Shown here: positions 2,861-47,471 of the stretch, one piece after another | Position numbering within the stretch: the stretch's first letter is position 1 | Layout: each line of letters begins with the position of its first letter | Assembly (NCBI RefSeq): GCF_034313965.1 | Contig: NZ_JAVIWQ010000002.1 | Span: 1,488,001-1,552,000, forward strand | Length of the DNA stretch: 64,000 nucleotides | Source: Herbaspirillum sp. RTI4 | Lineage (GTDB): Bacteria; Pseudomonadota; Gammaproteobacteria; Burkholderiales; Burkholderiaceae_D | Reading direction: 5' to 3' | Program-made: the position numbers and the translations under genes | Notes under the pieces: generated by a model | The model's input: only the letters and a program-made list of their open reading frames with translations | What the model was told of the DNA's origin: nothing | The model's database searches: none

Positions 2861-2872
2861 CCACTTCCCACT

Positions 2873-4072
2873 ATGTATCCTGACCGCGTCGTTTCCGGCA
2901 TGCGCCCCACGGGCGCACTGCACCTTGGCCACTATCACGGCGCGCTGAAAAACTGGGTCAGGCTGCAATCCGAATTGCCTTGCCTGTTTTTCGTTGCCGA
3001 CTGGCATGCGCTGACCACGCATTACGACGATCCTAGCGTGATCGAACACAGTACCTGGGAAATGGTGATCGACTGGCTGGCCTCGGGCGTCGATCCGTCG
3101 CAATCCACCTTATTCATCCAGTCGCGGATACCGGAGCATGCGGAGCTGCATTTGCTGCTGTCCATGGCCACGCCATTGGGCTGGCTGGAACGGGTGCCGA
3201 CTTACAAGGATCAGCAGGAAAAACTGGCTGACCGTGATCTGGCCACTTACGGCTTTCTTGGTTATCCCTTGCTGCAGGCTGCGGATGTGCTGATTTATCG
3301 CGCTAGCCAGGTGCCTGTGGGCGACGACCAGATTCCGCATATCGAAATGATGCGCGAAATTTCGCGCCGGTTTAATCATTTGTACGGCAAGGAAAAAGGC
3401 TTCGAGGAAAAAGCACGGGAAGCCGTCAGAAAACTCGGTGGCAAGCGCGCCAAGTTGTATCTGGAGCTGCGCACGCAGTTTCAGGAGCAGGGCGATGACG
3501 AAGCATTGGCGCAGGCCAAGGCCATGCTCGATGAAGCGCAAAACCTGTCGATGATCGACCGCGAGCGTTTGTTCGGTTATCTGGAAGGCAGCCGCAAGCT
3601 GATTCTGACCGAGCCTCAGGCCTTGCTGACGGAAGCATCGCGTCTGCCGGGACTGGATGGCGCCAAGATGTCCAAGAGTTACGGTAACGCGATTGCCTTG
3701 CGCGAAGACGCGGACAGCGTTACCCGCAAGATACGCACTATGCCGACGGACCCGGCGCGGGTGCGCCGCGCCGATCCTGGCGATCCGGCAAAATGCCCGG
3801 TCTGGCAATTTCATCTGGTGTATTCGGATCTGGCTGTCAGGGAGTGGGCTGACAAGGGATGTCGCTCGGCCGGTATCGGTTGTCTGGAATGCAAGCAACC
3901 GGTGATCGACAGCATCCTGAAAGAACAGCAACCGATGCTTGAGCGCGCTCAGCAGTATATTGATGATCCTAGTCTGGTGCGGGCAATCATCGCGGACGGT
4001 TGCGATACCGCCCGCAAGCTGGCGCAGGATACGATGCGCGATGTGCGCGAAGCCATGGGCCTTGGTTATTAA
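2873..4072 (+). CDS. trpS: Tryptophanyl-tRNA synthetase, long form
   Basis: This class I aminoacyl-tRNA synthetase charges tRNA-Trp. The HIGH motif reads HLGH at residues 17-20 and the KMSKS motif is exact at residues 265-269, followed by YGNAI. The GDDQIPHIEMMREI block is the tryptophan and adenylate binding region. The protein is 399 residues, about 65 more than the E. coli enzyme; the extra length is a charged, probably helical, insert at about residues 175-255 between the Rossmann halves, a feature of the long TrpRS type found in Burkholderiales. The ATG at 2873 lies 12 bp after the M50 protease stop. Confidence 0.96.
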   Translation: MYPDRVVSGMRPTGALHLGHYHGALKNWVRLQSELPCLFFVADWHALTTHYDDPSVIEHSTWEMVIDWLASGVDPSQSTLFIQSRIPEHAELHLLLSMATPLGWLERVPTYKDQQEKLADRDLATYGFLGYPLLQAADVLIYRASQVPVGDDQIPHIEMMREISRRFNHLYGKEKGFEEKAREAVRKLGGKRAKLYLELRTQFQEQGDDEALAQAKAMLDEAQNLSMIDRERLFGYLEGSRKLILTEPQALLTEASRLPGLDGAKMSKSYGNAIALREDADSVTRKIRTMPTDPARVRRADPGDPAKCPVWQFHLVYSDLAVREWADKGCRSAGIGCLECKQPVIDSILKEQQPMLERAQQYIDDPSLVRAIIADGCDTARKLAQDTMRDVREAMGLGY

Positions 4073-31900: not shown

Positions 31901-34900
31901 GTGCTGAGCAGATTGAGGTTGCTGGTGGCGAGTGTGCCGTTGAGTGTCAGGTCGGCGTTCGCGTTCAGGGAAGTACTGCCCGTGGCCAAGATTGCGCCGC
32001 TGGAGATTAGCGTGCCATTACTCGTGACGTTCAGATTGCTGGTGCTGATATTGCCCAGGGTCAGATTGCTGAAGGTATTGATGGCAGCCGAACCGCTGCC
32101 GCCGGTGTTCAGATTGACGAGGCCGTTGAGCGTGTTGTTGCCGGACAAATTCACGCTGCCGTTAGCTGCCGTGGCGTTGAGCGTGCCGCTGACGTTCAAC
32201 ATCCCTGCCGCCAGTTCCGCGACGCTAGCCGTGGTACTGAGCAGACTCAGGTTGCTGCTGGTGAGCGTGCTGTTGACTGTCAGATTACCGTTTGCGCTCA
32301 GGGCGGAAGCCCCCGTCGTCACGATCACGCCGCTGGTAGTGAGCGAGCCATTGCTGCTGGCATTCAGAGTGCCGGCACTGACATTGCCCAGTGTCAGACT
32401 GCTGAAATCATTGAGGAAAGCCGAACCGCTGGCGTTGATACTGACCAGTCCGTTGAACGTATTGTTGCCGGTCAAATTAATACTGCCGTTACCTGTCGCG
32501 ACGTTGAGTACGCCGCTGATGTTCAACACTGCCGCGGCCAGTTCAGTGACCATGCCTGCCGTACTACCCAGACTGAGATTGCCGGTGCTGAGCGTGCCGT
32601 TCAGTGTCAGGTTGCTATTGCCGTTGAATGTGGCACTGCCGGTTGCCGCGATCGTGCCGGTGGTGGTCAGCGTGCCATTACTCGTCGCCGACAAATTAAC
32701 GGTAGTGATATTGCCTATCGTCAGATCGCTATTGCTTGCCAGGGTCAGACTCGTCGGGGCGCTGAAACTGGTACCGAGATTCAATGCGCCGTTGCTGGAA
32801 CTCACGCTCAGATTCGGTGCGCTGATAGTGCTCCCCAGCGTCACATTACCGCTGGCGGACAGGCTCGCATTACTGCCTATCGTCAGATTTCCGGTCGTGG
32901 TCAGCGTGCCATTACTCGTCGCGGACAAATTGACGGTAGTGATATTGCCTATCGTCAGATCGCCATTACTCGCCAGGGTCAGGCTGGTCGGGGCGCTGAA
33001 ACTGGTACCGAGATTCAGTGAGCCGTTGCTGGAACTGATGCTCAGATTGGGCGCGCTGACAGTGCTCCCCAGCGTCACATTAGCACTGGCAGAGAGGCTG
33101 GCATTGCTGCCCGCAGTCACACTTCCCGTCGTGTTCAGCGTTCCGTTCGACAGCACCGCCAGATTGCCCGCGCTGATAATGCCTAGTGTCAGGTTACTCA
33201 AATTATTCAGTGCGACCGAACCGCTGCCGGTGGTGTTAATGCTCACTACGCCGTTGAGCGTATTGTTGCCGGTCAGGCTGACGTTGTTACTGGTCACGAC
33301 GATAGTGGTAGTGCCAGTGACATTCATTTGTGCGGTGGATAGCTCGGTGATGCCGGACGCATTACTCGTCATGCTCAGGTTGCCGACGCTCAGATTGGCG
33401 GTGATATTGATGTAGCCGTTGCTGTTCAGGTTCAGATTGCCGGAGCCGCCGCTCAGGTTTCCGCCTAAGTTACCGCCTAAGTCGAGGTTGCCGGTATCGC
33501 TGATGTTGAGGCTGCCTGTCAGCGCAAGTGCATTGTTGCTGCTGAGGAGCACATTGCCGGAGGCGTTGAGTGTCGTCGTGCCGGCCAGAGAGGAGCTGTT
33601 GGCGCTTGCCAGCAGGATGGCGGGTGCGTTGAGGCTGACGTTGCTGTTGGTGCCGGTGATATTTAAAACGCCGGTCGCATTCTGGGTAATGTTCGCTGTC
33701 CCCGTCAGTTGCACCCCGATGCCCGAAGTGGCGACCCCCGTCAGGTCTATCTCGCTGGTGCTGTTTTGCGTCAGCGGGGCGGTGACGCTCACCCCTGCGC
33801 CGGTCGCGCTATTGCCTGTGACCTGCAAGGTGCTTCCGGCGCCCACCGTCATGGGCGCGCTAATCAATACGCCTGCGCCATTCGCGGTGGAGCCATTGAT
33901 GCTGATGAGGCTGCCGGTGCCGCTCTGTGTCACCGCGGCCGCAATTTCCACGCCGTCGCCGCTCCCGCCGGTGGTGCCATTGATGACGATGCTTCCCCCA
34001 CCGCTCTGCGTCAATGCCCCTTCTATCCTGGTTCCTGCATTGGCCACACTGGTCCCGTTGAGCGTGATATGGCTCAGGTTGCCAGTTTGCGTCAACGACC
34101 CTGCGATATCCAGTCCGACATTGCCGGAACTCTTTCCGAGGATGTTAACCGTGCTGTTATTGACCGTGAGACTGGCGTTGCTGCCCAGGATGAATCCGGG
34201 GGAAGTGCTTGCGTTGGCGCTTGAATTGAAGCTGCCTGAACCGTTCATAGTGAGGCTGCTATTGCCTGCAAAGATGACGGCGCCCGGCCCGGTACCATTA
34301 ATCACCAGCAGGCTTGAACCGGTCTGGTTCAGGTTCGCGTTATTCAAGTACACCCCGGCCAGGGAGGACACATTATGCGCAACGCCATTGAGTACCAGCG
34401 ACCCGCTGCCCGTTTGAAGCAGGCTGGCGCCAGTATCGGCATAGATGCCTGCGGTGCTGGTGGTATTGGTGCCAAAGGCGTCGCCAGTCATTGTCACGCT
34501 GCCACTGCCGCTGAGGAGCAAGCTCCCCTGCATATACACGCCCTGATCGAGGCCGGTCGCAGCGATGATCAGGACGGAGGAAGAGGATTGGTTAATCGAT
34601 CCGGAAATGTTGATTCCCATGCCTGCGCTGGAGCTGGCATTCAAGGTCACGCAGCCAGTGCCCGATTTGCTCAGATTGCCGGCCATCAACAAGGCGGTGG
34701 AAACTGCGTTGGCAGAGATCGTGATGTTGCGCGTCCCCAATTCCTGCACATTGACACCGGCTGCAATCGATATCCCATAAGGACCGCTTGCGGTGGCGTT
34801 GCCGATCAGGTTGAGTGTTCCGGTGCCGTTTTCCACAATATTGCCGGAACTTACCAGAACTGCATCGTTTGTACCGCTGATGTTGCCGGTGCTGACGCCG

Positions 34901-36870
34901 CTGATATTTAAGATATTTAATACACCGACGGCCGTACGGGTAAAGGCGGTACTCGCATTGCCATAAAAGGCCACGCCATTTGCCGCAGAGCTGTTGCCGT
35001 TGATAACACCGTTGGAATTGCTGAAAGTATTGTTGTTGTAAAAAACCACCCCATCACCACCACTGTTGCCGTTGCCGTTCACAACCACATTACCGCCATT
35101 GAGGTTCACCACGGAATTGTTGAACGTGATGGTGCCGGACGCATTCATAAACAGGTTTATTCTGTTGGAGCTAGACGTGATGCTGGCGGTTTCGGTGATG
35201 TTGTTGCCGGCGGTGAACGACAGAGTAGTGCTCACCCCTGCGGACTTGATGATGTCGGCGTTGATGATGATGTTGCCGGCTCCACTGCCACTGGAATTGG
35301 CGGTACTGAGGATGACGCCGGTACCGGCGTTGAGAGAAGTCTGGATGGTGGCGTTGTTGACCGTCGCGCTGCTATTGGCTCCAGCGGTGAAACTGCCGCT
35401 GACGCCGCCGGTGTAATTGGCATTGCTCCCCGAACTGATGGTGATGTCGACCGGGTCCAGTAACCAGCTACCGGCATTGCCCATCGCTGCGCTGGCATCT
35501 ACCAGGCCGAAGGCTTGCAGGTTGTTGTGGCTCGACGTTTCAACCGTGCCGCCGTCACCGCCCTGCGGGCCGCCATGCGCCGTAATGTTGCCGTAAAAAC
35601 CTGTGAAATTATCCGACCACAGCACCACTCTGCCGCCATTGCCGGTATCAGTGGCAGAGGCGTCAATGCTGGCGCTGGCCGCCATGACCGTGGCCTGTGC
35701 GTGCGCAACCTTGCCAGCGTTACTGCCCTGATAATCGCCGCCGATCAGCACCGTGCCGCCGCCAGTAGTGCCGCTGGCATCGATGAAGGTTTGACCGAAT
35801 AATCCGACCTGTTGCCCGGTCAGTGTCACGTTGCCGCCGACGCCGTTGGGATTGGCCACACTAATCGTGGCGCCCGATAAATTCACGGTCCCTGCCGCAC
35901 CGCCATCGACAATCACGCTGCCCTGACTGCCGGAGACATTCATCACGCCGGTCAGATTGATGACGTCGTTGAGCAGGGCATTGGCCGATTGCGCGGTAAT
36001 CAAGACCTGCCCGTTGGCAGCGTTAATCGTGCCGCTTTGTTCGACTAAAGCATTGGCGCTGGCGTTGGTCAGGATGAAATTGATCAGTTGCCCGTTCGAC
36101 AAACTGATGGTGGCCTGATCGCCCGCCGCCAACACCACGCGGCCAGCAGCGGCATTGATGACGCCACTGTTCCTGACCTGATCGCCCATCAGGACGACAT
36201 AGCCGCCTGCCGCATTGAGACTGCCACTATTTTGGATTAAGCCATTGCTGGTGCCGGCACCGCCGAAAATCAGATCCTGATTGCCGCTCATGAATGCGGC
36301 ATTGCCAATGTCCTTGGTAGACGCCATCAGCCCTGCGACATTGACCATCGCGCCATTGCCAAAGACGATGCCTTGCGGATTGACCAGGAATACCTGACCG
36401 TTGGCGGTGAGCGTGCCCATAATCTGGCTGCTGCCGGTCAGTCCGGTGACGCGATTGAGTACCGCTGCGCTGCTGCCCGGTTGCTGGAATTGCACGCTGT
36501 TGCCTGCGCCGATATTGAAACTGTTCCAGTTAAGGACGGCGCGGTTGCTGCTCTGATTGATGAGGAGGGAATTGGCATTGGTTTGCGCGATGCTGGCGGC
36601 ACCGGCGGCCACCACGCCGCCTTGCGGCAAGGTTTGCGCGAATGCTCTGGAGGCTTCGGGCAGCAACAGCGCTGAGCCGGTCAGTACTGCGCTGGCAAGA
36701 GCAATGTTGCGCATGGAAACGAAGAAAATATCCCACACGGGACCGCGATGAATACTACTGGCGCTGCCATTGCCTCTGCCGGCCTTGCTGTCACTGGTTG
36801 CGTTTTCCGCCACCACCATCAGCATGCCGCGTTTTTGATTAAAAATAATCCGATAAAGAAGCTGGTTCAT
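28981..36870 (-). CDS. Two-partner secretion exoprotein (filamentous haemagglutinin/HMW-like adhesin)
   Basis: This 2629-residue TpsA-type protein has an extended signal peptide region (NQLLYRIIFNQKRGMLMVVAE, then a hydrophobic segment, cut near AFA at residue 78) and a TPS secretion domain (about residues 79-340) with SVQFQQPGSSAAVLNRV and the NPQGI motif at 164-168. The rest is predicted beta-helix, dominated by tandem repeats of about 112 residues rich in Ser, Asn, Leu, Gly and Thr with phrases such as LTLGNISTGNLT. Such proteins cross the outer membrane through a TpsB/FhaC pore and act in adhesion or contact inhibition. No TpsB gene and no C-terminal toxin/immunity pair is visible. Very many N-x-S/T triplets occur. 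Confidence 0.9.
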   Translation of the reverse strand: MNQLLYRIIFNQKRGMLMVVAENATSDSKAGRGNGSASSIHRGPVWDIFFVSMRNIALASAVLTGSALLLPEASRAFAQTLPQGGVVAAGAASIAQTNANSLLINQSSNRAVLNWNSFNIGAGNSVQFQQPGSSAAVLNRVTGLTGSSQIMGTLTANGQVFLVNPQGIVFGNGAMVNVAGLMASTKDIGNAAFMSGNQDLIFGGAGTSNGLIQNSGSLNAAGGYVVLMGDQVRNSGVINAAAGRVVLAAGDQATISLSNGQLINFILTNASANALVEQSGTINAANGQVLITAQSANALLNDVINLTGVMNVSGSQGSVIVDGGAAGTVNLSGATISVANPNGVGGNVTLTGQQVGLFGQTFIDASGTTGGGTVLIGGDYQGSNAGKVAHAQATVMAASASIDASATDTGNGGRVVLWSDNFTGFYGNITAHGGPQGGDGGTVETSSHNNLQAFGLVDASAAMGNAGSWLLDPVDITISSGSNANYTGGVSGSFTAGANSSATVNNATIQTSLNAGTGVILSTANSSGSGAGNIIINADIIKSAGVSTTLSFTAGNNITETASITSSSNRINLFMNASGTITFNNSVVNLNGGNVVVNGNGNSGGDGVVFYNNNTFSNSNGVINGNSSAANGVAFYGNASTAFTRTAVGVLNILNISGVSTGNISGTNDAVLVSSGNIVENGTGTLNLIGNATASGPYGISIAAGVNVQELGTRNITISANAVSTALLMAGNLSKSGTGCVTLNASSSAGMGINISGSINQSSSSVLIIAATGLDQGVYMQGSLLLSGSGSVTMTGDAFGTNTTSTAGIYADTGASLLQTGSGSLVLNGVAHNVSSLAGVYLNNANLNQTGSSLLVINGTGPGAVIFAGNSSLTMNGSGSFNSSANASTSPGFILGSNASLTVNNSTVNILGKSSGNVGLDIAGSLTQTGNLSHITLNGTSVANAGTRIEGALTQSGGGSIVINGTTGGSGDGVEIAAAVTQSGTGSLISINGSTANGAGVLISAPMTVGAGSTLQVTGNSATGAGVSVTAPLTQNSTSEIDLTGVATSGIGVQLTGTANITQNATGVLNITGTNSNVSLNAPAILLASANSSSLAGTTTLNASGNVLLSSNNALALTGSLNISDTGNLDLGGNLGGNLSGGSGNLNLNSNGYINITANLSVGNLSMTSNASGITELSTAQMNVTGTTTIVVTSNNVSLTGNNTLNGVVSINTTGSGSVALNNLSNLTLGIISAGNLAVLSNGTLNTTGSVTAGSNASLSASANVTLGSTVSAPNLSISSSNGSLNLGTSFSAPTSLTLASNGDLTIGNITTVNLSATSNGTLTTTGNLTIGSNASLSASGNVTLGSTISAPNLSVSSSNGALNLGTSFSAPTSLTLASNSDLTIGNITTVNLSATSNGTLTTTGTIAATGSATFNGNSNLTLNGTLSTGNLSLGSTAGMVTELAAAVLNISGVLNVATGNGSINLTGNNTFNGLVSINASGSAFLNDFSSLTLGNVSAGTLNASSNGSLTTSGVIVTTGASALSANGNLTVNSTLTSSNLSLLSTTASVAELAAGMLNVSGTLNATAANGSVNLSGNNTLNGLVNLNTGGSGSAAINTFSNLTLGNISTSNLNVTSNGTLISSGAILATGSTSLNANADLTLNGTLATSNLNLLSTMTNVTQLATGVLNVSGTLRATASNGSINLVGSNTFNAAANLNTSANGSAALISASNLTLGNVSTGNLTAFSNGTLSTAGNVTAGSNASLSARANVTLGGNVSAPNLSLSSSNGSLNLATNFSAPTSLTLASNGSLTIGNISTVNLSATSNGTLTTNGASVAVGSTALNANGDLNLNGTLATGNLNLVSTTANVTQLATGVLNVSGTLNATASNGSINLVGSNTFNGAANLNTGASGNVTIASASNLSLGSISTGNLTATSNATLTTNGAIVATGSTALNANGGLNLNGTLATGNLNLVSTTANVTQLAAGPLNLSGMLNATAGNGSVNLTGASNTLNGLINLNTSSSGSASIASASNLTLGSISTGNLTATSNATLTTNGVIVAVGSTALNTNGDLTLNGTLATGNLSLVSTTANVTQLATGPLNLSGMLNATAGNGSVNLTGASNTLNGLVNLNTGSSGSASIASASNLTLGNVSTANLNVTSNGTLDTAWNVTAGNNARLSASGNVTLGSNVRAPNLSLSSINGSLNPGANFSGPVSLNLASNGNLTIGDISTGNLTVTSNTTLTTTGNLTAGSSINLSSGGNLSLGGNISAPNLSLHSSNGSLNFNGNFSAANQLTLASNGNLTVANISTGNLTISSNGTLVTAGNLTSSGNTSLIAGGNLSLGGNLSAGNLSLLSIFANVTQLANGTLNIAAVLDAMAPNGSLNLLGGNLLNGTVNLCTSNSGSAAFNAVSNLTIGNVSTLDLNVVTNKALNMIGNAQVAGNATLSANGSVALNGNLSAGQLVLNSTTGNITGSLGSSLMVTGNSNLNAMQGGVNLPGLTNYLAGLTTVNVSANGVAIVNGADNLVINMQNDTVTVMATPQELTVASFINAPPVIGTAPATTLSSVAIGEVIGLSIQQGFEGITRTNTDALTTKLAGDVNLLVIKISDGMTSPSLLKNSVAEGRGGDGNRLFSVQDEVIIISNDLNSP
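30300..33250. repeat. Tandem and interspersed repeats in the exoprotein gene
   Basis: DNA units of about 333-336 bp recur: the phrase GCCAGTTGCG(T) restarts at 30641, 30977, 31310 and 31877, with flanking sequence nearly identical over tens of bases. Shorter units around GTCACATT and CTCCCCAGCG are interspersed. Units are multiples of three and keep the frame open. Borders are approximate. Confidence 0.8.
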
Positions 36871-37405
36871 GCGCGCCCTGTATCTGAAAATAATCAGCCT
36901 GTATTTTTGAAAATCAGCGATACGCTTCAGATGGAACCTATTGCGTTCGAGATTTATTTCTCTCTTATAAATTATTAAAAATAACAGGTGGGCTGGGTGG
37001 TTTCATGAGGACTTGCGTTATCTTTAAACGCTTATTTCACAAATCAGGATTCGTTTCCGTGAGGGTCTGTTCCAGTGAGGTATCGTCGAGAGAAAATGCC
37101 ATGGAGTATCCCTTCTGAAAGATGAAGAATATTATGGTTGAATTAATGAAACACTAAAACACTAAATGAGAAAATACAATTATTTATTAAATATATAATT
37201 TATGGATAGAAATATTATTAAATATAAATTTAATTGAATAATTTTTTAAAAATAAAATTTATTGTTTTTAGTTAATATTATTTTCTCGTATTCAATTAAA
37301 CATGAGTAATTAATAAGATTATTCGTGCAGTTTATTTTGCAATATTGGGTTGTCAGAAGTCGGTACGGTGATCCGGTGAGATGGCGTCTGTGGCGGGCGC
37401 ACATG
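36871..37405. other. Upstream region of the exoprotein gene, AT-rich
   Basis: About 530 bp with a very AT-rich stretch from 37130 to 37330. It lies upstream of the exoprotein on the minus strand, so promoter and possibly silencer binding (for example an H-NS-like protein) would be here. No box pair or gene is convincing. Confidence 0.5.
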
Positions 37406-37443
37406 AAAAATGCCGTTCGACGCAAGGTCAAACGGCATTTTTT
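37406..37443. terminator. Terminator after lgt
   Basis: The 12-bp stem AAAAATGCCGTT/AACGGCATTTTT with a 13-nt loop is followed by T's on both strands. It lies about 40 bp beyond the lgt stop and shields the exoprotein promoter region. Confidence 0.8.
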
Positions 37444-37484
37444 CTGCCGGCGCATGAGCGGCCGGAGAGAGGGAGTGCTGCTGG

Positions 37485-38312
37485 TTATTTGGCCGCTACG
37501 ACGGGGGGTGTCGTATCAAATTTCGGATTCCTGTAGGCCACGATCAGCAAGACAATACCCAGCACGATCATGGGCACCGACAGCATTTGCCCGGCTGAAA
37601 TGGTGATGCCGCCGAAACTGACGTTGTAATCCGGCACGCGGAAATATTCGGTGAAAAAGCGGGCGCATCCGTAGAGCAGCGAAAACATGCCGGACACGGC
37701 CATGCGTGGCCGTGGATGACGTGCGTATAGCCACAGCAGAATGAAGAGCAGGATGCCATCCACCAGCATCTGATAAATCGGCGAGGGGTGGCGCGGCAGG
37801 TTATCGACATTGGGCCAGATCATGGCCCAAGGCAGCGAGGCATCGGCCACCCGGCCCGGCAATTCGGCGTTGATGAAATTGCCCAGACGTCCGGCGGCAT
37901 AGCCCAGCGGTACCAGCGGCGCGATGAAATCCATAATCTGCATCAGCGGACGTCCCTTCTTGCGGCCCCACCAGTACATGGCGACCAGTACGCCGAGAAA
38001 TCCGCCGTGAAATGACATGCCGCCTTTCCATACCGCGAAGATATCGGCTGGATTGTGAAAATAGTAGACCGGGTTATAAAACAGCACTTCGCCCAGACGA
38101 CCGCCCAGGACGACTCCCAGTACGCCGTAAAACAGCATGTCGTCGAGGTCTTCCTTTTTCCATCCGGCGGCGGCGATATGCGCTTGCCGGATGCGCACGC
38201 GTCCCAGCGCGATGAAGAAGACAAACGCTAGCAGGTACATCAGACCGTACCAGTGCACGGCCAGCGGACCGATGGATATGGCGATCGGATTGGGCATCGG
38301 GTGTATCAGCAT
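37485..38312 (-). CDS. lgt: Prolipoprotein diacylglyceryl transferase
   Basis: Lgt attaches diacylglycerol to the lipobox cysteine of prolipoproteins in the inner membrane. The 275-residue protein has about seven hydrophobic segments, the HGGFLG motif, and the signature region [16 protein letters not shown] with essential Arg and Asn. It is needed for BamC and the small lipoprotein in this window. It lies 41 bp downstream of the LysR regulator gene on the same strand and ends at a strong terminator. Confidence 0.96.
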
Positions 38313-38353
38313 GAGAGGGGCTTTCTAATGTATATGAAGGGGGCTGGAGGAGC

Positions 38354-39304
38354 CTAGGGAGAATCGGAGAGGACGTCAGGGGGTGTGGCGGCTTGTTCTG
38401 CGGGAGAGGGCGGGATGGCTTGCTCCCGGATCAGGTCAAGGAAGGCGCGCAGCACGGGTGAGGGGTTGTCGCGTCGCCAGGCCAGTCCGGTTTCTATCAG
38501 CGGCGTTGCCCCGCGCAAGCTGCGATAGTCGACTCCCGGACGGCGCAAGTTGGACACAGATTGTGGCACAAGTGCCATGCCCATGCCGGCCGATACCAGA
38601 CCGACGATGGTTTGCATCTGGATCGCTTCCTGGCCGATGTCCGGCACTACATCGGCGTCGCGGAAGCAACTCATGATGGTGTCGTGGAAGCCGGGCGCGA
38701 TCCGGCGCGGAAAAATAATCAGCGGCAGGTCAGCCAGTTGTCTGAGCGCAATCGGGCCTGTGCCGGGCAGCGCGCCGGTGGGAACGACGGCGATCAGCGG
38801 TTCTGACAGTACGGGCAGGTAGTCCAGGGTGCGCTTGATTTTGTCCGACAGGGGCGGCAGCAGCAGACCGGCGTCGATCTTGCCTTCGCCCAGCTGATCG
38901 AGCTGCACATCGCTGGTGGCTTCGCGCAGTTCGATGCGGACTTGGGGGTAGCGCGCCCGGAACTGTTGCAGCAGCGGCGGCAGGATGCTGTAGTCGGCGC
39001 TGGAAATGAAGGCCAGCGAGAGTACGCCGGCCGCTCCGCCAGCGGCGCGGCGCACCAGATCGGGCAGGGCGGCGGTTTGCAGCAGCAGGCGCTGCGCCTC
39101 CGGTAGCAGTGCTTCACCCGCAGCGGTGAGGCTGACGCTGCGTTTGGTGCGGGTAAATAACAGCGTCCCCAGCGCGTCTTCCAGCGCCTGAATGGTTTGC
39201 GACAGCGGCGGTTGGGTCATGTGCAGGCGCACGGCGGCGCGGCCGAAGTGTTTTTCTTCGGCGACGGCAATGAAGTAACGCAGCTGACGCAGGTCGATTT
39301 GCAT
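38354..39304 (-). CDS. LysR-family transcriptional regulator
   Basis: This 316-residue regulator has the winged helix-turn-helix at residues 1-62 (LRQLRYFIAVAEEKHFGRAA, MTQPPLSQTIQALED) and a substrate domain from about 90. The recognition motif PPLSQTI resembles the CbnR/BenM branch. The region upstream of its start carries TCATAT-N7-ATATGA, a LysR-type box, and an almost equal copy lies before ilvD. It likely controls itself and ilvD and/or the hydrolase gene between. lgt is 41 bp downstream. The effector is unknown. Confidence 0.9.
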   Translation of the reverse strand: MQIDLRQLRYFIAVAEEKHFGRAAVRLHMTQPPLSQTIQALEDALGTLLFTRTKRSVSLTAAGEALLPEAQRLLLQTAALPDLVRRAAGGAAGVLSLAFISSADYSILPPLLQQFRARYPQVRIELREATSDVQLDQLGEGKIDAGLLLPPLSDKIKRTLDYLPVLSEPLIAVVPTGALPGTGPIALRQLADLPLIIFPRRIAPGFHDTIMSCFRDADVVPDIGQEAIQMQTIVGLVSAGMGMALVPQSVSNLRRPGVDYRSLRGATPLIETGLAWRRDNPSPVLRAFLDLIREQAIPPSPAEQAATPPDVLSDSP

Positions 39305-39380
39305 GGCGGTGCATCAACGTAAAAGAGATGGAAAAGGAGGGGTAGTGAAAAAGGCGCTTGGGCCAGTCAATCGGATTATA

Positions 39381-39460
39381 GATGAATCATATGCAAAAAA
39401 TATGAATTGCCGCTGAGTCATATATTTAACCGCCGGTAAGTGGCAATGCACTTTGCGCGG
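39381..39460. repeat. Promoter-like direct repeat, copy 1
   Basis: 80 bp that match 41041-41120 at 64 of 80 positions by hand count, in the same orientation. It contains the dyad TCATAT-N7-ATATGA (39387-39405), a LysR-type box, and lies 76 bp upstream of the LysR gene start. Confidence 0.8.
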
Positions 39461-39607
39461 CATTTTTCTGTATCAAGCGATGGCTTCGCTGCTCTTGCTG
39501 GAAAAAAAAGGGGAGGGCCCGGCAGGTCGTCGTTGCAAGGGACATGGGTGAAAGATCGACATACCGACTCCCCTTGCTGATCTCACTGCCCGGCATTCAG
39601 CCTGCCG
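39461..39607 (-). other. 3' end of the hydrolase gene transcript
   Basis: Between the repeat and the hydrolase stop. A long-range 8-bp pairing AAGGGGAG/CTCCCCTT (39508-39515 with 39568-39575) followed by T8 on the minus strand may be a weak terminator. Confidence 0.35.
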
Positions 39608-40813
39608 TCATTTCATCAAGGTGTTGGACGGCAGTGTTTCATCGAGGAGTTTTTTGGCAGTGTTGATGCCGACCACGGGCAAGGTGTTTTCATCGAGCAA
39701 ACCCACTTGCACCAGTACGGACGCCTGATCCCAGTAAATATGTTCGTGGTAGAGCTTATCGCCACGGAAATTGACGATGGCAATCAACGGAATTTCGACA
39801 TATTTGCCGGTGGGTTTAATCCCCGGAAGCATCCAGTCGATTTCGCAGGTGTGGGTGAAGCAAAACAGGCATTCATCCACAATCTGGGAGGCCCCTTCGG
39901 TGCGGGAAATCGGAATCAGACGGGTATCCGGCGGATTGCTGTGGACGAAGTGATTGGTATAGAAATGATGCAAGTTTTTATACCCTACGCCACCCGTCAT
40001 GGTGGGGATATGGTTGACATAGGGTTCGGCCACCATCGTCGCCATCGTGTCATCCACGTTGCGGGTCGTAAATTCATATTCACAATGCTTATCCCACAAG
40101 GCGGAAAGATTGTAGTGCGGGCCGATGGCCTTGCGGAAGGCGTCGATCGATCGGCCATGCGCCATTAAGGCGGAGGATTTGTCGTAGTGTTCTGAAACGG
40201 GGCGGGCAAAGGCGTGATCCACATCAGGATACAAGTACATTCTGACGTTCGGCTTATCCTGCAAGCCAGCGACTATTTTCTCTCGCACTGCTGCGGGCGA
40301 AAAATGATCCAGGGCCGCGAAGTGCAATACCAAATTGCCTTTTATATGGTTTGCTTCATTCAGGTTTTCTTCGATGCCGACGCCGTAATAGGCGACCGCT
40401 ACATCGATATCGCAACGACATGCGGCCAGATAAGCCAACTTCCCGCCGAGGTAATAACCCAGCACACCGGCTTTGCCCTCAAATTGCGGAAGCTGACGTA
40501 AGACCTGTAAGGTGGCATCAATGTCTTCAACGGCCAGATCCTGATCGCAGCCGGTAAAGAGGGCGAAAGCGCGCTCCAGGTCTGCCGGCGTATAGCCCAG
40601 TTGCACTCCCGGTTCCTGCCGCCAGAACAGATCGGGTGCCAGCACGACATAGCCTTCCTCTGCGTAATGATCGGCAACTTCACGGACGAAATCATTAACC
40701 CCGAAAATTTCTTGCGCCAGCACAATGCCAGGCCCCTTGCCGGAGGCCGGTACCGCTAAATAGGCGCTAAATGTTCTACCGTCTGCGGCCTTGATGCTGA
40801 TATAGCTTCCCAT
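39608..40813 (-). CDS. Dienelactone hydrolase-like protein fused to an NTF2/SnoaL-like domain
   Basis: This 401-residue protein has an alpha/beta-hydrolase domain of the dienelactone hydrolase family (residues 1-235, GPGIVLAQEIFGVN, LGYYLGGKLAYLAACR, DVDHAFARP) and a C-terminal SnoaL/NTF2-like domain (about 245-385, WDKHCEYEFTTRNVDDTM). Dienelactone hydrolases use Cys-Asp-His; here the nucleophile elbow reads G-Y-Y-L-G-G, so the cysteine codon is tyrosine (TAC), while Asp (ALDHFSP) and His remain. It may be inactive, use another residue, or have a new function. AGAAGGAA precedes the ATG at 40813. Its upstream and downstream flanks carry two copies of a LysR-type promoter sequence. Confidence 0.85.
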   Translation of the reverse strand: MGSYISIKAADGRTFSAYLAVPASGKGPGIVLAQEIFGVNDFVREVADHYAEEGYVVLAPDLFWRQEPGVQLGYTPADLERAFALFTGCDQDLAVEDIDATLQVLRQLPQFEGKAGVLGYYLGGKLAYLAACRCDIDVAVAYYGVGIEENLNEANHIKGNLVLHFAALDHFSPAAVREKIVAGLQDKPNVRMYLYPDVDHAFARPVSEHYDKSSALMAHGRSIDAFRKAIGPHYNLSALWDKHCEYEFTTRNVDDTMATMVAEPYVNHIPTMTGGVGYKNLHHFYTNHFVHSNPPDTRLIPISRTEGASQIVDECLFCFTHTCEIDWMLPGIKPTGKYVEIPLIAIVNFRGDKLYHEHIYWDQASVLVQVGLLDENTLPVVGINTAKKLLDETLPSNTLMK

Positions 40814-41193
40814 TTGCGTTCCTTCTGAGGTGATGAAGAGGGGTATGTCCCTTCTGAAAATAGCCGCTGGCACAGGGGGATGTTGCCCGGAGACAACCAC
40901 TATAGTCGGTAGCAACTTCCCCTACTATCCGGATCTGGCAATTTATGCGTCGGTCGGGAGATTAAATTCGCCGGCGGCAAGATATGGATAGTGGCGGACA
41001 GGGACGCCCCTTATTGCTGCCGCCAGTCAATGAACAGAGCGATGAGTCATATCTAAAAAATATGAATTGCGTCTGAATCATATATTTGACAGCAGGTTGG
41101 AGGCAAGGCACTCTACGCGCACGCATTTGTCATCCGCATACCATTCGCCACTCATTTAGTTGCTCACTTAGCCCCACCCCTACGGAGATCGCC
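40814..41193. promoter_or_regulatory. Divergent hydrolase/ilvD control region
   Basis: 380 bp between two divergent starts. It contains repeat copy 2 (41041-41120), GGAG before the ilvD ATG and AGAAGGAA before the hydrolase ATG. No gene is supported. Confidence 0.6.
41041..41120. repeat. Promoter-like direct repeat, copy 2
   Basis: Partner of 39381-39460, with the same LysR-type dyad TCATAT-N7-ATATGA (41047-41065), about 75 bp upstream of the ilvD start. Confidence 0.8.
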
Positions 41194-42867
41194 ATGTCCT
41201 TCAACCGCCGTTCCAAAAATATCACTCAGGGCATCTCACGCAGCCCTAACCGCTCCATGTATTACGCCATGGGATATGAGAAGAAAGACTTCGACAATCC
41301 GATGATCGGCGTGGCGAACGGGCATTCCACCATTACTCCTTGCAATTCCGGTTTGCAGAAGCTGGCGGACATCGTGATTTCTACGATTAAAGCAGAAGGC
41401 GCCAATCCGCAAGTGTTCGGCACACCGACCATTTCCGACGGGATGTCGATGGGGACGGAAGGCATGAAGTATTCGCTGGTGTCGCGCGAAGTGATTGCCG
41501 ACTGCATCGAAACCGCCGTCATGGGGCAGTGGATGGATGGCGTGGTCGTCATCGGTGGTTGCGATAAAAACATGCCGGGCGGCATGATCGGCATGGCGCG
41601 CAGCAATGTGCCCGGCATCTACGTCTATGGCGGCACCATCAAGCCGGGCAAATGGAAGGGCAAAGACCTGACCATCGTGTCCTCATTTGAAGCGGTGGGT
41701 GAATTTTCGGCGGGCCGCATGTCGCAGGAAGATTTCGACGGCATCGAAAAAAATGCCTGTCCTTCGTCCGGTTCGTGCGGCGGGATGTACACGGCCAACA
41801 CCATGTCTTCTTCGTTCGAGGCGCTGGGCATGGCACTGATGTACTCCTCCACCATGGCCAATCCTGACGATGAAAAAGTCGGCTCCGCTGCTGAATCGGC
41901 GCGCGTGCTGGTCGAAGCCGTTAAGCGCGACCTCAAGCCGCGTGACATCATCACCCGCAAGTCGATCGAAAATGCCGTCGCGCTGATCATGGCGACCGGC
42001 GGCTCCACCAACGCCGTGTTGCATTACCTGGCGATTGCCCATGCCGCAGAAGTCGAATGGACCATCGATGACTTTGAGCGCGTGCGTCAGCAAGTGCCTG
42101 TCATTTGCAATCTCAAGCCTTCCGGCCAATATGTGGCGACCGACCTGCATCAGGCCGGCGGCATTCCGCAAGTCTTGAAAATCTTATTGAACGCCGGCCA
42201 CATCCACGGCGATTGCATCACCATTACCGGCCGCACTTTGGCGGAAGAACTGGCAGGCATTCCCGATCTGCCACGCGCCGATCAAAAAGTGATTCATACC
42301 ATCGACAAGGCTCTGTACGCGCAAGGCCATCTGGCGATCCTGAAGGGCAATCTGGCACCGGAAGGCTGCGTGGCCAAGATTACCGGTCTCAAGAATCCGG
42401 TCATCACCGGCCCGGCCCGGGTGTTTGACGATGAGTACACCGCGATGGATGCCATCCTGGCCGATCAGATCAAGCCCGGCGATGTGCTGGTGATGCGTTA
42501 CCTCGGCCCTAAGGGTGGCCCTGGCATGCCGGAAATGCTGGCACCGACTTCGGCGCTGATCGGCAAGGGTCTGGGCGAATCAGTGGGTCTGGTGACCGAT
42601 GGCCGTTTCTCCGGCGGCACCTGGGGCATGGTGGTGGGTCACGTTGCACCGGAAGCGTATGTCGGCGGACTCATTGCACTGGTCGAGGAAGGTGATTCGG
42701 TCACGATCGATGCGCATCAGCAGTTGCTGCAACTGAACGTGGCGGACGAGGAAATCGCTCGTCGTCGTGCCTTGTGGAAGCAGCCTGCACCGCGTTATAC
42801 GAGTGGCATTCTGTACAAATTCGGCGTACTGGTTTCATCGGCCAGTAAAGGCGCGGTGACCTGCTAG
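41194..42867 (+). CDS. ilvD: Dihydroxy-acid dehydratase
   Basis: IlvD performs the third common step of valine, isoleucine and leucine synthesis with an iron-sulfur cluster. The 557-residue protein shows the cysteine motifs [10 protein letters not shown] and [18 protein letters not shown], plus [14 protein letters not shown] and [12 protein letters not shown]. The ATG at 41194 follows ACGGAG and gives the family N-terminus; the more upstream in-frame ATG adds 36 unrelated residues. It is divergent from the hydrolase and LysR genes, and a LysR box lies about 130 bp upstream. Confidence 0.97.
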
Positions 42868-42941
42868 TATCTGGCTGCTATCCGGTGTGGTGATGTGCTT
42901 GCCGGATAGTTGCTGCGGGTCTGGATTTTATGGAGGGCAAG

Positions 42942-43265
42942 ATGAAACAATCGATATTGCAAGGCATGTTGCTGACCGGCGCATTGACGTTGGTGTCGGG
43001 CGCAGTCATGGCGCAGGCCTCGTCACTTGATCTGGCGCGGACTAAAAATTGCATGGCGTGCCATGCGATTGGCAATAAGGTGGTCGGTCCGGCGTATAAG
43101 GATGTCGCTAAAAAATATGCCGGACAAAAAGGCGCTGAGGATATGTTGGTGCAGAAGGTCATGAAGGGTGGCGGTGGCGTGTGGGGTGCAGTGCCGATGC
43201 CAGCCAATACCCAGGTTTCTGCGGCTCAAGCGCACACACTGGTCAAATGGGTGCTGTCACAGTAA
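42942..43265 (+). CDS. Small class I cytochrome c
   Basis: This 107-residue periplasmic cytochrome has a signal peptide cut near VMAQA, one haem site CMACH at residues 37-41, and an axial Met in VPMPAN near residue 86, resembling c551/c552-type electron carriers. The ATG at 42942 is preferred to one 12 bp upstream because GGAGG precedes it at 5-6 bp. It follows ilvD by 74 bp on the same strand and may be read through from it or have its own promoter. Its redox partner is not in the window. Confidence 0.93.
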   Translation: MKQSILQGMLLTGALTLVSGAVMAQASSLDLARTKNCMACHAIGNKVVGPAYKDVAKKYAGQKGAEDMLVQKVMKGGGGVWGAVPMPANTQVSAAQAHTLVKWVLSQ

Positions 43266-43298
43266 GTCGGCTGAACCAGAAGCAAGTAATGAGAATGA

Positions 43299-43332
43299 AA
43301 AAAACGCCACGTATATTTTACGTGGCGTTTTT
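43299..43332. terminator. Bidirectional terminator
   Basis: The stem AAAAACGCCACG/CGTGGCGTTTTT with a 9-nt loop has A- and T-runs on either side, ending both the cytochrome gene and the converging binding-protein gene. Confidence 0.9.
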
Positions 43333-43364
43333 CATTACAGCATTGGTTTGCCGTTGCGTAGTAC

Positions 43365-44510
43365 TTACTTGACGACTTCCAGCAAAGTACGGATGCCTGC
43401 CTTGTAAGTGTAGAGCGTCAGGGAACCGTCCTTGATATCGCCCTTGGCATCGAATGCGATCATGCCGGTAATGCCCTTGTAGTGGGTCTTGGCGATTTCA
43501 GGCAGGAATTTCGCAGGGACGGTGGAGTTGGCTTTCTTCATTGCCTCAGCAACGACCATGGTGGCGTCGTAAGCATAGGCAGCGTTATAGACAACGTCGA
43601 TACCGAAGCGTTTCTTGTACGAAACCTTGAAGTCTTCCATGGCTTTCTTGCCCGCTTCAGGGACGCCGCCTGCTTCAGCGCAGACGACCTGATCGTCACG
43701 CAAGCCATCGCCGGCCAGTGAGGCCAGTGAGCCGGTACAGATACCGTCGCCGCCCATGAACTTGGCGTCGATGCCGAGCTGTTTCATTTGACGCAGCATC
43801 GGGCCGCCGACTGCATCCATGCCGCCGAAGAAAATCACATCCGGTTTCTTGGATTTGATCGAGGTCAGGATGGCGTTGAAATCGGTAGCCTTGTCGTTGG
43901 TGTATTGCTTGGAGACGATAGTCGCGCCGGCTGCCTTGGCACCCTTGGCAAATTCTTCGGCGACGCCCTGGCCATAGGCGGTGCGGTCATCAATGACAGC
44001 GATATTCTTGCCCTTGAGATTCTTGACGGCATATTTGCCCAGCACGCTGCCGAGCTGCGCATCGTTGGCGACTACGCGGAAGGCGGTCTTGAAACCTTGC
44101 TGCGTGTACTTCGGATTGGTGGCGGAAGGCGAAATTTGCGGAATGCCTGCATCGCTGTAAATTTTTGAAGCCGGGATGGTGGTGCCTGAATTGAGGTGGC
44201 CGATCACTGCGGCGACTTTAGCGTCAACCAGCTTGGTGGCGACTGCGGTAGCTTGCTTCGGATCGGAAGCATCGTCTTCCGCCTGAAGGTCCAGTTTGAT
44301 TTTCTTGCCGCCGACAGTAAAACCCTTCTGGTTCAACTCTTCGATGGCCATGCGGGCGCCGTTTTCATTATCTTTGCCCATGTGCGCGTTCGGACCCGAG
44401 ATCGGGCCTACGTGACCAATGGTGACGGAGGACTCCTGCGCATAGGTTGCGCCGGCAAACATCAATGCAATAGCGCCAGCGAGGGGGATAATTTTGCTCT
44501 TGAGTTTCAT
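43365..44510 (-). CDS. Branched-chain amino acid ABC transporter binding protein (LivK-like)
   Basis: This 381-residue periplasmic binding protein has a signal peptide (IIPLAGAIALMFAGATYAQ) and the type I binding fold: VTIGHVGPISGPNAHMGKD at the start, YSDAGIPQISPSATNP, RVVANDAQLGSVLGKY, VYNAAYAYDATMV. It would deliver Leu, Ile, Val or a related amino acid to an ABC importer. No permease or ATPase gene adjoins it, so the transporter parts are elsewhere or shared. AAGGAC lies 8 bp before the ATG. High codon adaptation and a strong terminator suggest strong expression. Confidence 0.92.
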   Translation of the reverse strand: MKLKSKIIPLAGAIALMFAGATYAQESSVTIGHVGPISGPNAHMGKDNENGARMAIEELNQKGFTVGGKKIKLDLQAEDDASDPKQATAVATKLVDAKVAAVIGHLNSGTTIPASKIYSDAGIPQISPSATNPKYTQQGFKTAFRVVANDAQLGSVLGKYAVKNLKGKNIAVIDDRTAYGQGVAEEFAKGAKAAGATIVSKQYTNDKATDFNAILTSIKSKKPDVIFFGGMDAVGGPMLRQMKQLGIDAKFMGGDGICTGSLASLAGDGLRDDQVVCAEAGGVPEAGKKAMEDFKVSYKKRFGIDVVYNAAYAYDATMVVAEAMKKANSTVPAKFLPEIAKTHYKGITGMIAFDAKGDIKDGSLTLYTYKAGIRTLLEVVK

Positions 44511-45005
44511 TACTGAGGTCCTTTGTGTGAAAGAAAAATGGTGGGTGTGAAAGCTTGCTGTTGATGATTGTTATTTTCTGTTGGTACCGATCAGCGTCAT
44601 CCAATATCGACAAAGAAGGTAACGGTCAAACCTGCATCGGACAACCCTGAGGGATCAGGTTACAAAAGGTACAACATAAAAAACCTGCGTGCAAAGTATA
44701 TTTTGCCGTTGCCGGGATCAGTGAGGGACGGCGGTAAGCAATGCTGTGTGACAAGGCTGAGGTGCTGCGCAGTAGTGGGGCGAAGCGAGTGAAATAAGAC
44801 GACGTAATGCGCGGTAACGGTGCAGATATGGTGCAGATATCGGCTCTAAGCGCCGTTTTGGATCGTCATACCGCTTGTAAAAATATGTCGATGGGGCTGC
44901 GTGTGTTATTTTCCACGGGGTTCAACAGGCGTTCTTTGTTCAAGGCCACAGGTCCAACGCAATGAGGGCACTGCCGCCAATTTTATTTTTTCGGGATAGC
45001 GCTTT
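44511..45005. other. Divergent spacer between binding-protein and antiporter genes
   Basis: 495 bp upstream of both genes, so two promoters are expected. It holds a tandem pair of GGTGCAGATAT (44819-44840). A 74-codon frame at 44568 shows no ribosome site or known product. Confidence 0.4.
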
Positions 45006-46766
45006 ATGGATGCAGTGGAACTATTTATTCAGGATCTGGCCGTCATCATGCTGGTGGCGGGTGTCGTGACGGTGGTGTTTACCCGTTTCCGGCAACCGTT
45101 AGTGTTGGGTTACATCGTCGCCGGCGTACTCATAGGGCCGCACACGCCGCCTTTCGCGCTGATCCAGGATTTGCATACCGTTCATATTCTGTCCGAGCTG
45201 GGGGTGATTTTTCTGCTGTTTTCTCTGGGACTTGAGTTCAGTTTAAAAAAACTGGCCCGCGTCGGTGCGACTGCGCTGATCACGGCGATGGCGGAAATCG
45301 CCATGATGATCTGGCTCGGTTACGAAATCGGCGTGTACTTCGGCTGGAAACCGATGGATGCTGTTTTCCTGGGCGCGATGCTGGCCGTTTCCTCGACCAC
45401 CATTATCGTTAAAGCGCTCAATGAACTCGGCTTGAAAAACGAAAAATTTTCTCAAATCATTTTCGGCATTCTGATCGTTGAGGACATCCTCGCCATCGGC
45501 ATGATTGCTTTGCTCTCCGGCATTGCCACCAGCGGCTCGGTGGCGCCGGCAGAAGTGGCGGGAACCATAGGCAAACTGCTGCTCTTTATGACCGTGTCGC
45601 TGGTGGTAGGCATTGTTGTGGTGCCGCGCTTGCTGAGTTATGTCGCCCGTTTTCGCAGTAATGAAATGCTGCTGGTGAGCGTGCTCGCTATCTTGTTCGG
45701 ATTTTGCCTGCTGGTGATGAAATTGCAATACAGCGTTGCGCTGGGGGCCTTCCTGGTGGGCGCAATAATGGCCGAAGCGCGCCAGATTCATCGTATCGAA
45801 CGTGTGATCGAACCGCTACGCGATATGTTCAGCGCAATTTTCTTCGTCGCAATCGGCCTGCTGTTTGACCCGACTGTCCTCAAGGATTATTGGCTTCCGA
45901 TTACCGTGATTACGATAGCGGTGGTGTTCGGCAAGTTGGTCAGTTGCACTATCGGTGCGTTTCTTTCCGGCGAAACGGGCCGCACGCCGATGCGAGTGGG
46001 TATGGGGCTGGCGCAGATCGGTGAGTTTTCTTTCATCATCGCCGCGCTCGGCGTGAGTCTGAAAGTCACCAGCGACTTTCTTTACCCGATGGTGGTGGCG
46101 GTATCGGCCATTACGGCTTTGCTGACCCCCTACCTGATTCGTGCCGCCGATCCGTTGTCGAGCAAAGCCGCCAGCGTCTTGCCGTTAAAGCTCAGCAAGG
46201 CGCTGGGCCAGTATTCGACCTGGCTGCACAGTCTCCAACCGCAAGGCGATAAGGCAGCTCTGCGCAAAATCATCCTGCGCATTGTGCTGCAAGTCCTGGT
46301 GAATTTTGCGCTGATGATTGCCATCTTCATGTGCGCCTCGTTTTTCGAGAAAATCATCAGCGATAAAATGGTCGGCTGGGTGGATGATGTTGACCTCAAA
46401 AAGGCGCTGATCTGGGGCGGGGCTTTGGTGTTGTCGTTACCGTTTCTTATCGCGACCTATCACAAGTTGCAAGCGCTGAGCATGTTGCTGGCCGAAGTGA
46501 TCGTCGGGCCGGAGTTCAACAGTGTCCGCGCCAAGCGCATGCGCCAAGTGATTTCGGAAGCAGTGCCAGCATTGTCGATCGTATTTTTTATGGTACTGAT
46601 TTTCGGCTTGAGCGCGAATATCCTGCCGCCTTTGAAGTTGCTGCTCGTGGTGTTGCTGAGCGTTGCAGGTTTGTTGGCGCTGCTGTGGCAGCGGCTGATT
46701 AAATTGCATTCCCGCTTGCAGATCGCCTTGTTTGAAACCTTGAACGAGCAGCCGGAAGAGCATTGA
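45006..46766 (+). CDS. CPA2 cation:proton antiporter (KefB-like, no RCK domain)
   Basis: This 586-residue membrane protein has a CPA2 exchanger core of about 12 helices (residues 1-385; GYIVAGVLIGPHTPP, LLFSLGLEFSLKKL, VLGAMLAVSSTTIIVKAL-type region, QIIFGILIVEDILAI with the ion-binding Asp, and MGLAQIGEFSFIIAALG). Unlike KefB/KefC it has no C-terminal TrkA-N/RCK nucleotide domain; instead the last 170 residues contain about four further hydrophobic helices. It presumably exchanges K+ or Na+ for protons. rpiA starts 21 bp later and is probably co-transcribed. Confidence 0.88.
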   Translation: MDAVELFIQDLAVIMLVAGVVTVVFTRFRQPLVLGYIVAGVLIGPHTPPFALIQDLHTVHILSELGVIFLLFSLGLEFSLKKLARVGATALITAMAEIAMMIWLGYEIGVYFGWKPMDAVFLGAMLAVSSTTIIVKALNELGLKNEKFSQIIFGILIVEDILAIGMIALLSGIATSGSVAPAEVAGTIGKLLLFMTVSLVVGIVVVPRLLSYVARFRSNEMLLVSVLAILFGFCLLVMKLQYSVALGAFLVGAIMAEARQIHRIERVIEPLRDMFSAIFFVAIGLLFDPTVLKDYWLPITVITIAVVFGKLVSCTIGAFLSGETGRTPMRVGMGLAQIGEFSFIIAALGVSLKVTSDFLYPMVVAVSAITALLTPYLIRAADPLSSKAASVLPLKLSKALGQYSTWLHSLQPQGDKAALRKIILRIVLQVLVNFALMIAIFMCASFFEKIISDKMVGWVDDVDLKKALIWGGALVLSLPFLIATYHKLQALSMLLAEVIVGPEFNSVRAKRMRQVISEAVPALSIVFFMVLIFGLSANILPPLKLLLVVLLSVAGLLALLWQRLIKLHSRLQIALFETLNEQPEEH

Positions 46767-46787
46767 ATTATTTTTTAAGGCACTGAC

Positions 46788-47471
46788 ATGACACAAATGA
46801 CACAAGATGAATTGAAACAGGCAGTCGCCAGAGCGGCCATTGAGTACGTGGTGGCGGGGGAGATTGTCGGCGTGGGGACCGGATCGACCGCCAATTTTTT
46901 CATTGATGAACTGGCCAAGATCAAAGATCGCATTATCGGTGCCGTAGCTTCGTCCGATGCCAGCGCGGCGCGCTTGCGCGGCCATGGCATTGCCGTTCTG
47001 GATTTGAATCAGGTCGAATCGATGCCGGTGTATATCGACGGCGCAGATGAAATCACGGCGCAGGGTGCCATGATCAAGGGCGGTGGCGCAGCGTTGACAC
47101 GCGAAAAAATTGTGGCTTCTGTCGCCAGGAAATTCATCTGCATTGCGGATGGTTCCAAGCTGGTGGAGCGACTTGGACAATTTCCTTTGCCGGTGGAAGT
47201 GATTCCGATGGCGCATGCAAGCGTCAGTCGCAAGCTGGCGGCTCTCGGCGGTGAACCGCGTCTGCGCTTGAAAGACGGGCAGCCGCTGCTGACCGACAAC
47301 GGCTGCTGCATCCTTGACGTATTCGGTTTGCAAATCGAAGATCCGCAAGCGCTGGAGCGGGAAATCAATCAGATCGCTGGCGTGGTGACGGTTGGCCTGT
47401 TTGCGCAGCAAGGCGCGACGGTGTGCTTGCTGGGAACGGCAGAGGGAGTGCGGCGGCTGGAGTTTGCGTAA
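46788..47471 (+). CDS. rpiA: Ribose-5-phosphate isomerase A
   Basis: RpiA interconverts ribose- and ribulose-5-phosphate. The 227-residue protein carries [25 protein letters not shown] and [14 protein letters not shown] with the catalytic Asp, Glu and Lys positions of the family. An upstream AAGGCA stands 5-6 bp before the ATG. It links to the transaldolase and Zwf reactions encoded 20 kb away. Confidence 0.96.

Follow-up and report, generated by a model that had tools for sequence, protein, structure and literature searches.

An apparently duplicated lysR-ilvD operator-promoter on either side of a hydrolase gene in Herbaspirillum sp. RTI4

In Herbaspirillum sp. RTI4, a lysR gene and a divergent ilvD gene are held apart by a hydrolase gene, on each side of which lies a copy of the same promoter-like sequence. 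This raises the question of how one regulatory element came to be present twice around another gene, and what each copy may now do. The window, i.e., the whole stretch of DNA analysed here, covers 64,000 nucleotides of contig NZ_JAVIWQ010000002.1 (assembly GCF_034313965.1), and the locus within it consists of lgt, lysR (minus strand), the lysR-side copy of the element (referred to as boxL), the hydrolase gene (minus strand), the ilvD-side copy (boxI), ilvD (plus strand), and a cytochrome c-like gene (plus strand), in that order.

Downstream of lysR is lgt (37485..38312, minus strand), which encodes prolipoprotein diacylglyceryl transferase (TIGR00544, 258.5 bits, cut-off 118.9) and was matched as the neighbour of lysR in 30/30 loci compared (L001-L030). 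The lysR gene itself (38354..39304, minus strand) encodes a LysR-type regulator with HTH_1 (85 bits) and LysR_substrate (158 bits) domains, both above cut-off. Against NCBIfam, its product reached the cut-off of none of the 25 models listed (of 54 matched), scoring for instance 264 bits with AlsR (NF045775, cut-off 430); we consider it the probable regulator of ilvD (IlvR-like). On the other side of the hydrolase gene, ilvD (41194..42867, plus strand) encodes dihydroxy-acid dehydratase (TIGR00110, 733 bits, cut-off 618), and the small cytochrome c-like gene (42930..43265, plus strand), recognized from a motif by eye and a weak NCBIfam match, lies at the far side of the locus. Elsewhere in the window, a repetitive ORF of 2,629 aa (28981-36870) resembles, by eye, an adhesin of the filamentous-haemagglutinin type.

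The two copies form a direct repeat (39381-39459 and 41041-41119) with 81% identity over 79 bp at an offset of 1660 bp, and their local alignment score of 49 compares with a maximum of 18.5 among 500 dinucleotide shuffles. An initial annotation of this DNA had counted 64 identical positions over 80 bp (39381-39460 and 41041-41120), and our recount gives the same figure. It had also described the motif TCATAT-N7-ATATGA as perfect in both copies; we found it exact in boxL and boxI and nowhere else in the 3.99-Mb genome (being palindromic, each genomic site is listed on both strands). The longest exact run common to both copies is 16 bp. Further to the left, the block GCCAGTCAAT is shared at 10/10 positions in the same register (39362-39371 and 41022-41031), and on the basis of this register the repeat probably starts 19 bp before the start first reported, giving an extended repeat of 39362-39460 and 41022-41120 with 75/99 identical positions. 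When the flanks are compared free of position, neither side exceeds chance, as the score of the left flanks, GCCAGTCAAT included, was reached by 81/500 shuffles and that of the right flanks by 205/500. The spacing is nearly as annotated (76 bp before lysR and about 75 bp before ilvD), the lysR-side copy being 76 bp away from where lysR starts (39304) and the ilvD-side copy 73 bp away from the ilvD ATG (41194). What the annotation called a 1.6-kb hydrolase gene does lie between the copies, but its ORF is 1.2 kb long, and 1.6 kb is the length of the whole inter-copy segment. A duplication of the whole locus was rejected, since an ilvD remnant sought after boxL gave a local score of 14.5 (reached by 16/500 shuffles, slightly raised yet unconvincing) and a lysR remnant sought before boxI gave 11.5 (reached by 187/500).

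We read the repeated sequence as a compact two-way operator-promoter, predicted to serve the LysR-type regulator and the divergent ilvD. Its lysR-side part, TCATAT-N7-ATATGA, contains T-N11-A and would be the site of recognition and autorepression, and its other part, the activation half TCATATATTTGACA, would overlap the -35 of ilvD as well as the -10 of lysR. In the latter half, TTGACA fits the ilvD -35, with a per-position conservation of 82-98% in relatives, and would form with a weak -10 (CACTCT, 17 nt away) the putative ilvD promoter (41086..41114, plus strand), which is absent from the sites listed by a consensus promoter scan. The opposite strand of the activation half carries the lysR -10, TATGAT, with TTGC upstream; in boxI, the scan lists this lysR-direction promoter as TTGCCT-18-TATGAT (41077..41106, minus strand), where it faces the hydrolase gene, and the last base of its -10 is kept in 98% of relatives' sites. 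As the scan found 2 promoter-like sites compared with 2.8 expected in shuffles, and promoter and terminator sites across the window were no more numerous than in shuffles, all promoter assignments in the locus should be taken as predicted. From the palindrome centre (41056) and the predicted ilvD start (~41121), the palindrome would be centred near -65 of ilvD, which is the classical LysR-type position for a palindrome with T-N11-A, as given in PMC4834489. Because the two promoters are interleaved, an insertion could not separate them without cutting off one gene.

The arrangement in relatives was examined at 114 of 115 lysR loci (L182 has no lysR start and was left out); a few of these are from outside the family, and one genome, G484, is counted twice (L178 and L240). 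An orthologous ilvD diverges from lysR at 68 of the 114 loci, 67 of them with a gap of 92-327 bp. At 17 more (L176 and 16 within L215-L261), a paralogous ilvD with 34-38% identity takes the same place; the one scanned, that of L216, is a PRK12448-type dihydroxy-acid dehydratase. The other 29/114 have no ilvD within the 1-3 kb examined beyond lysR. Unlike the 68 orthologous and 17 paralogous loci, the window has its lysR-ilvD adjacency interrupted. In an alignment of the first 25 relatives' intergenic regions, a comparison that the initial annotation had proposed, each region has a single conserved box; together with the 67/68 loci at 92-327 bp, this agrees with its suggestion of an ancestral divergent lysR-ilvD region with one element. 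The pattern TCATATATTTRAC is present in 109/245 genomes of the family (the reversed pattern, used as a control, matched ~11 genomes), with two copies in 5 genomes, and among these 5 only the window's genome has the pair in one locus. One locus of another family, L047, also has a widened lysR-ilvD gap (1,098 bp) with a transporter-like gene within it (2402-3505, EamA-like by eye); no doubled box was found there, and its repeats of 18 and 23 nt are unrelated to the box. The comparison supports the interpretation that the ancestral element has been doubled here, with a gene that this lineage acquired lying between the copies. In the literature that we searched (titles and abstract openings, few subscription papers), we found no case of a LysR operator duplicated on both sides of an inserted gene.

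To compare the two copies, we used a profile seeded with the boxI sequence and trained on relatives only, built from 66 of 84 ilvD-adjacent loci. It has two parts, the palindrome (RBS) and GAATCATATATTTGACA (the activation half, ABS). The remaining 18 loci did not align at the threshold; 15 of them have a strong activation half (at least 25 bits) and were apparently missed because the palindrome runs into the lysR start and was clipped in extraction, and the other three (L044, L045, and L049) are weaker. Over the whole core, boxI (41022..41120, plus strand; core 41047-41091) scores 46.9 bits and boxL (39362..39460, plus strand; core 39387-39431, palindrome 39387-39405) 26.7 bits, and any other site in the window scores at most 12 bits. 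The two halves have fared differently. The RBS of boxL (15.3 bits, compared with 13.9 in boxI) is ordinary among the 66 aligned relatives' sites, and its ABS has 9.9 bits, compared with 30.8 in boxI and a median of 30.6 in the 66. As 3/66 of these ilvD-adjacent relatives also score no more than 9.9 bits, and the ABS of L045 is at -2.2, a low ABS score alone is no proof of lost function. Among the bases lost from boxL are the A that ends the lysR -10 (98% conservation; TATGAT in boxI, TATGAC in boxL) and, within the ilvD -35, a G (95%) and an A (82%). Thus, the palindrome survives in boxL, but little remains there of the activation half or the predicted promoter hexamers; boxI is intact.

Between boxL and lysR, an exact TATAAT on the lysR strand (39375..39380, minus strand) is a candidate replacement -10 for lysR. 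The promoter scan gave no matching -35 for it; among relatives, 2/114 loci have a TATAAT on the same strand no more than 80 bp away from the start of lysR. The stretch from the palindrome to lysR (39305-39386) is 82 bp long in the window, compared with a median of 20 in the 66 relatives' loci, which indicates that the lysR side was altered in other ways too.

The gene between the boxes (39608..40813, minus strand) encodes a protein of 401 aa, matching dienelactone hydrolase in its first part (PF01738, 145 bits, gathering cut-off 21) and SnoaL-like in its second half, where the SnoaL matches are below Pfam cut-offs; with the YghX family (NF041440) it scores 83.1 bits (cut-off 460). Among 34 genomes of the genus, none of the other 33 has the gene at E<=1e-100, and hence we consider that it came from outside. 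A stricter search of the order (E<=1e-200) gave no match in 398 further genomes, although homologs with 64-66% identity, which occur in two other families, escape this threshold. Its closest homolog is 80% identical and the next are 74-77% identical, a Telluria MAG and Polaromonas among them; the homolog in Massilia eurypsychrophila (76%) lies beside a gene that is Rieske oxygenase-like by eye. DNA similarity to 80 homolog loci stops within ~50 bp of the gene. A donor carrying the gene beside a matching box was sought and rejected, as ilvD or lgt is near the homolog at 0/80 of these loci (flanks up to 6 kb). Third-position GC is 62% in the hydrolase gene and 71-76% in lysR, ilvD, and lgt.

The predicted protein itself is unusual at one position. 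Codon 121 (window 40451-40453, minus strand) places a Tyr at the nucleophile position (G-Y-Y-L-G-G), where 119/120 aligned proteins (the best 120 of 4,894 matches) have a Cys in the motif G-[FY]-C-[LM]-G, the window's protein being the exception. In the dienelactone hydrolase of PDB entry 1din, with which the DLH domain aligns over residues 5-225 (E 3e-49), the residue opposite Tyr121 is a Cys, which we take to be its nucleophile; unlike 1din, the window's protein thus has Tyr for Cys, as well as the SnoaL-like C-terminal half. D169 and H200, presumably the Asp and His of the catalytic triad, are invariant in 12 aligned proteins. Since Tyr121 is the single unique change across 119 otherwise invariant columns, the gene is not decaying generally, and we rejected a reading of it as a decaying pseudogene. 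Tyr121 may come from a sequencing error.

The sequences show directly that the element is repeated here and single in relatives, that its two copies are unequally eroded, and that the sampled congeners do not have the gene. The best explanation, which we hold to be fairly probable, combines the gain of a foreign hydrolase gene, a doubled two-way element, and copies that have since divided their tasks. In this reading, a foreign gene of the dienelactone-hydrolase/SnoaL-like type would have come between lysR and ilvD, and a segment of ~100 bp with the whole element would have been doubled, leaving one copy to each of the old genes. The copies would then have diverged because each had one job only after the doubling, the ilvD-side copy staying intact and the lysR-side copy keeping its recognition palindrome while shedding most of the activation half. 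Transcription of lysR would now probably start from the new -10 TATAAT close by, continue into lysR from the hydrolase gene, or do both, and the lysR-direction promoter of boxI, which faces the hydrolase gene, may drive the latter. In effect, one shared switch would have become two, with one part for lysR and another for ilvD. That LysR binds and activates, in which order the events took place, and that the hydrolase gene is transcribed are inferences from the sequence; neither a donor of the hydrolase gene nor an intermediate state was found, and copying before, with, or after the arrival of the gene would all be compatible with the present arrangement. It seems rather improbable that the split went as far as an autoregulatory-only copy and a full activation copy, with the lysR promoter moved to the new -10 and a catalytically altered hydrolase-like protein wired into the circuit of the ilvD regulator.

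Other readings of the locus were considered. boxI might work fully in both directions, as the promoter of ilvD and of a hydrolase-lysR transcript, which would place the hydrolase gene under LysR control and make boxL a relic; we think this possible, though on balance doubtful. It would account for the lysR-direction -10 that is TATGAT in boxI and TATGAC in boxL, and no minus-strand terminator-like site is listed between 39608 and 39304. However, 233 bp separate the boxI core from the hydrolase ATG, so the gene could have its own promoter, a weak terminator-like site (40980-40968, at chance level) lies in between, and boxL has retained its palindrome. Moreover, the lysR-direction -10 shares bases with the activation half for ilvD, and therefore its conservation would be explicable without the hydrolase gene. 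LysR control of the hydrolase gene is, as such, plausible from the layout. A very unlikely alternative to descent from one element is that two LysR operators, sharing the same binding palindrome, have been kept alike by selection. Against it, 9 of the 45 core columns have the same non-consensus letter in both copies (consensus is found in boxI only at 5, in boxL only at 1, and all differ at 1), and of 13 columns under weak constraint the copies agree at 9, where relatives agree with boxI at a mean of 4 and the best relative at 9, equal to boxL; they also share the in-register 10-bp block outside the core.

Other explanations concern the way in which the gene arrived. One accessory gene flanked by direct repeats could be a mobile or recombination-prone cassette, excisable across the boxes, as the initial annotation proposed. 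This proposal was not supported, and we regard it as highly improbable: the copies are 81% identical and their longest exact run of 16 bp falls short of the length required for RecA-dependent exchange, no recombinase was recognized by eye among the ORFs of 34000-47000, the hydrolase gene is in no other of the 34 genus genomes, and the repeat unit is the operator itself in relatives. A circular DNA with the hydrolase gene beside a related box, integrated by a single crossover, would also be expected to leave direct copies on either side, as seen here, since the exchange would take place at a common stretch. We consider it unlikely, because neither ilvD nor lgt is near the gene at any of the 80 homolog loci, DNA homology beyond the gene stops within ~50 bp, the LysR gene found just downstream of the hydrolase homolog at L120 and L134 is on the opposite strand and has 34% identity, and the sister-copy pattern of the boxes favours a local origin.

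The favoured reading, a doubled element whose copies have divided the work, can be set beside known systems. In Caulobacter crescentus, the LysR-type IlvR and ilvD diverge from one bidirectional promoter, according to PMC12340889. The window is likened to it by gene layout, i.e., a regulator divergent from ilvD, and differs in having a foreign gene between regulator and target and two copies of the promoter. Escherichia coli IlvY is also of LysR type, with divergent ilvY-ilvC promoters (PMC4834489). The target in the window is ilvD instead of ilvC, and its LysR scores 126.7 bits with the IlvY model (NF008722), whose cut-off is 246. The role of ilvC is in branched-chain amino acids. In the classical LysR-type operator, the palindrome also covers the regulator's own promoter and a second site lies by the -35 (PMC4834489). 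The predicted layout in the window matches this except that the element is present as two copies, worn to different degrees and held apart by a gene. A further case is ThnR, one LysR-type protein with two divergent promoters, both of which are activated and cooperate via a DNA loop (PMC4834489); there the promoters are close together, whereas in the window the boxes are spaced by 1.66 kb, and little is left of the activation half in one of them. The locus suggests a route by which interleaved divergent promoters may be parted, namely by copying the whole element and letting each copy drop the part that it does not need.

Relatives that have lysR without an adjacent ilvD bear on what such a lone copy may look like. 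Twelve congeners are of this kind (L005, L011-L014, L019, and L021-L026; wider stretches L031-L041), with a cytochrome gene 238-338 bp from lysR. Beside lysR, 11/12 have an RBS scoring at least 9 bits, where in each case no more than 1/200 shuffles matched the observed score, and 11/12 have an ABS below 15 bits, the exceptions being L011, without both halves, and L005, with both; as the 12 are related to each other, the 11 are not independent events. In its sequence, boxL looks like these lysR-side boxes. At 17 loci of other genera without a lysR-adjacent ilvD, an RBS of at least 9 bits beside lysR was found in 0/17, so that lysR has retained nothing of the box at these loci, indicating that retention of the palindrome only is not the general fate. 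The converse case is given by L183-L200, which were chosen because they contain the box pattern: in 18/18 the box lies before a distantly related ilvD (33-35% identity), and no lysR was found within 1.5 kb on either side. Judging from these loci, the box follows ilvD function. Together, the congeners without an adjacent ilvD and the distant-ilvD loci offer a natural dissection of the LysR operator into its autoregulation half and its activation half. A distantly related ilvD (33-38% identity) may stand behind the same LysR operator either in place of the usual ilvD or far from lysR, such that the operator outlives the gene.
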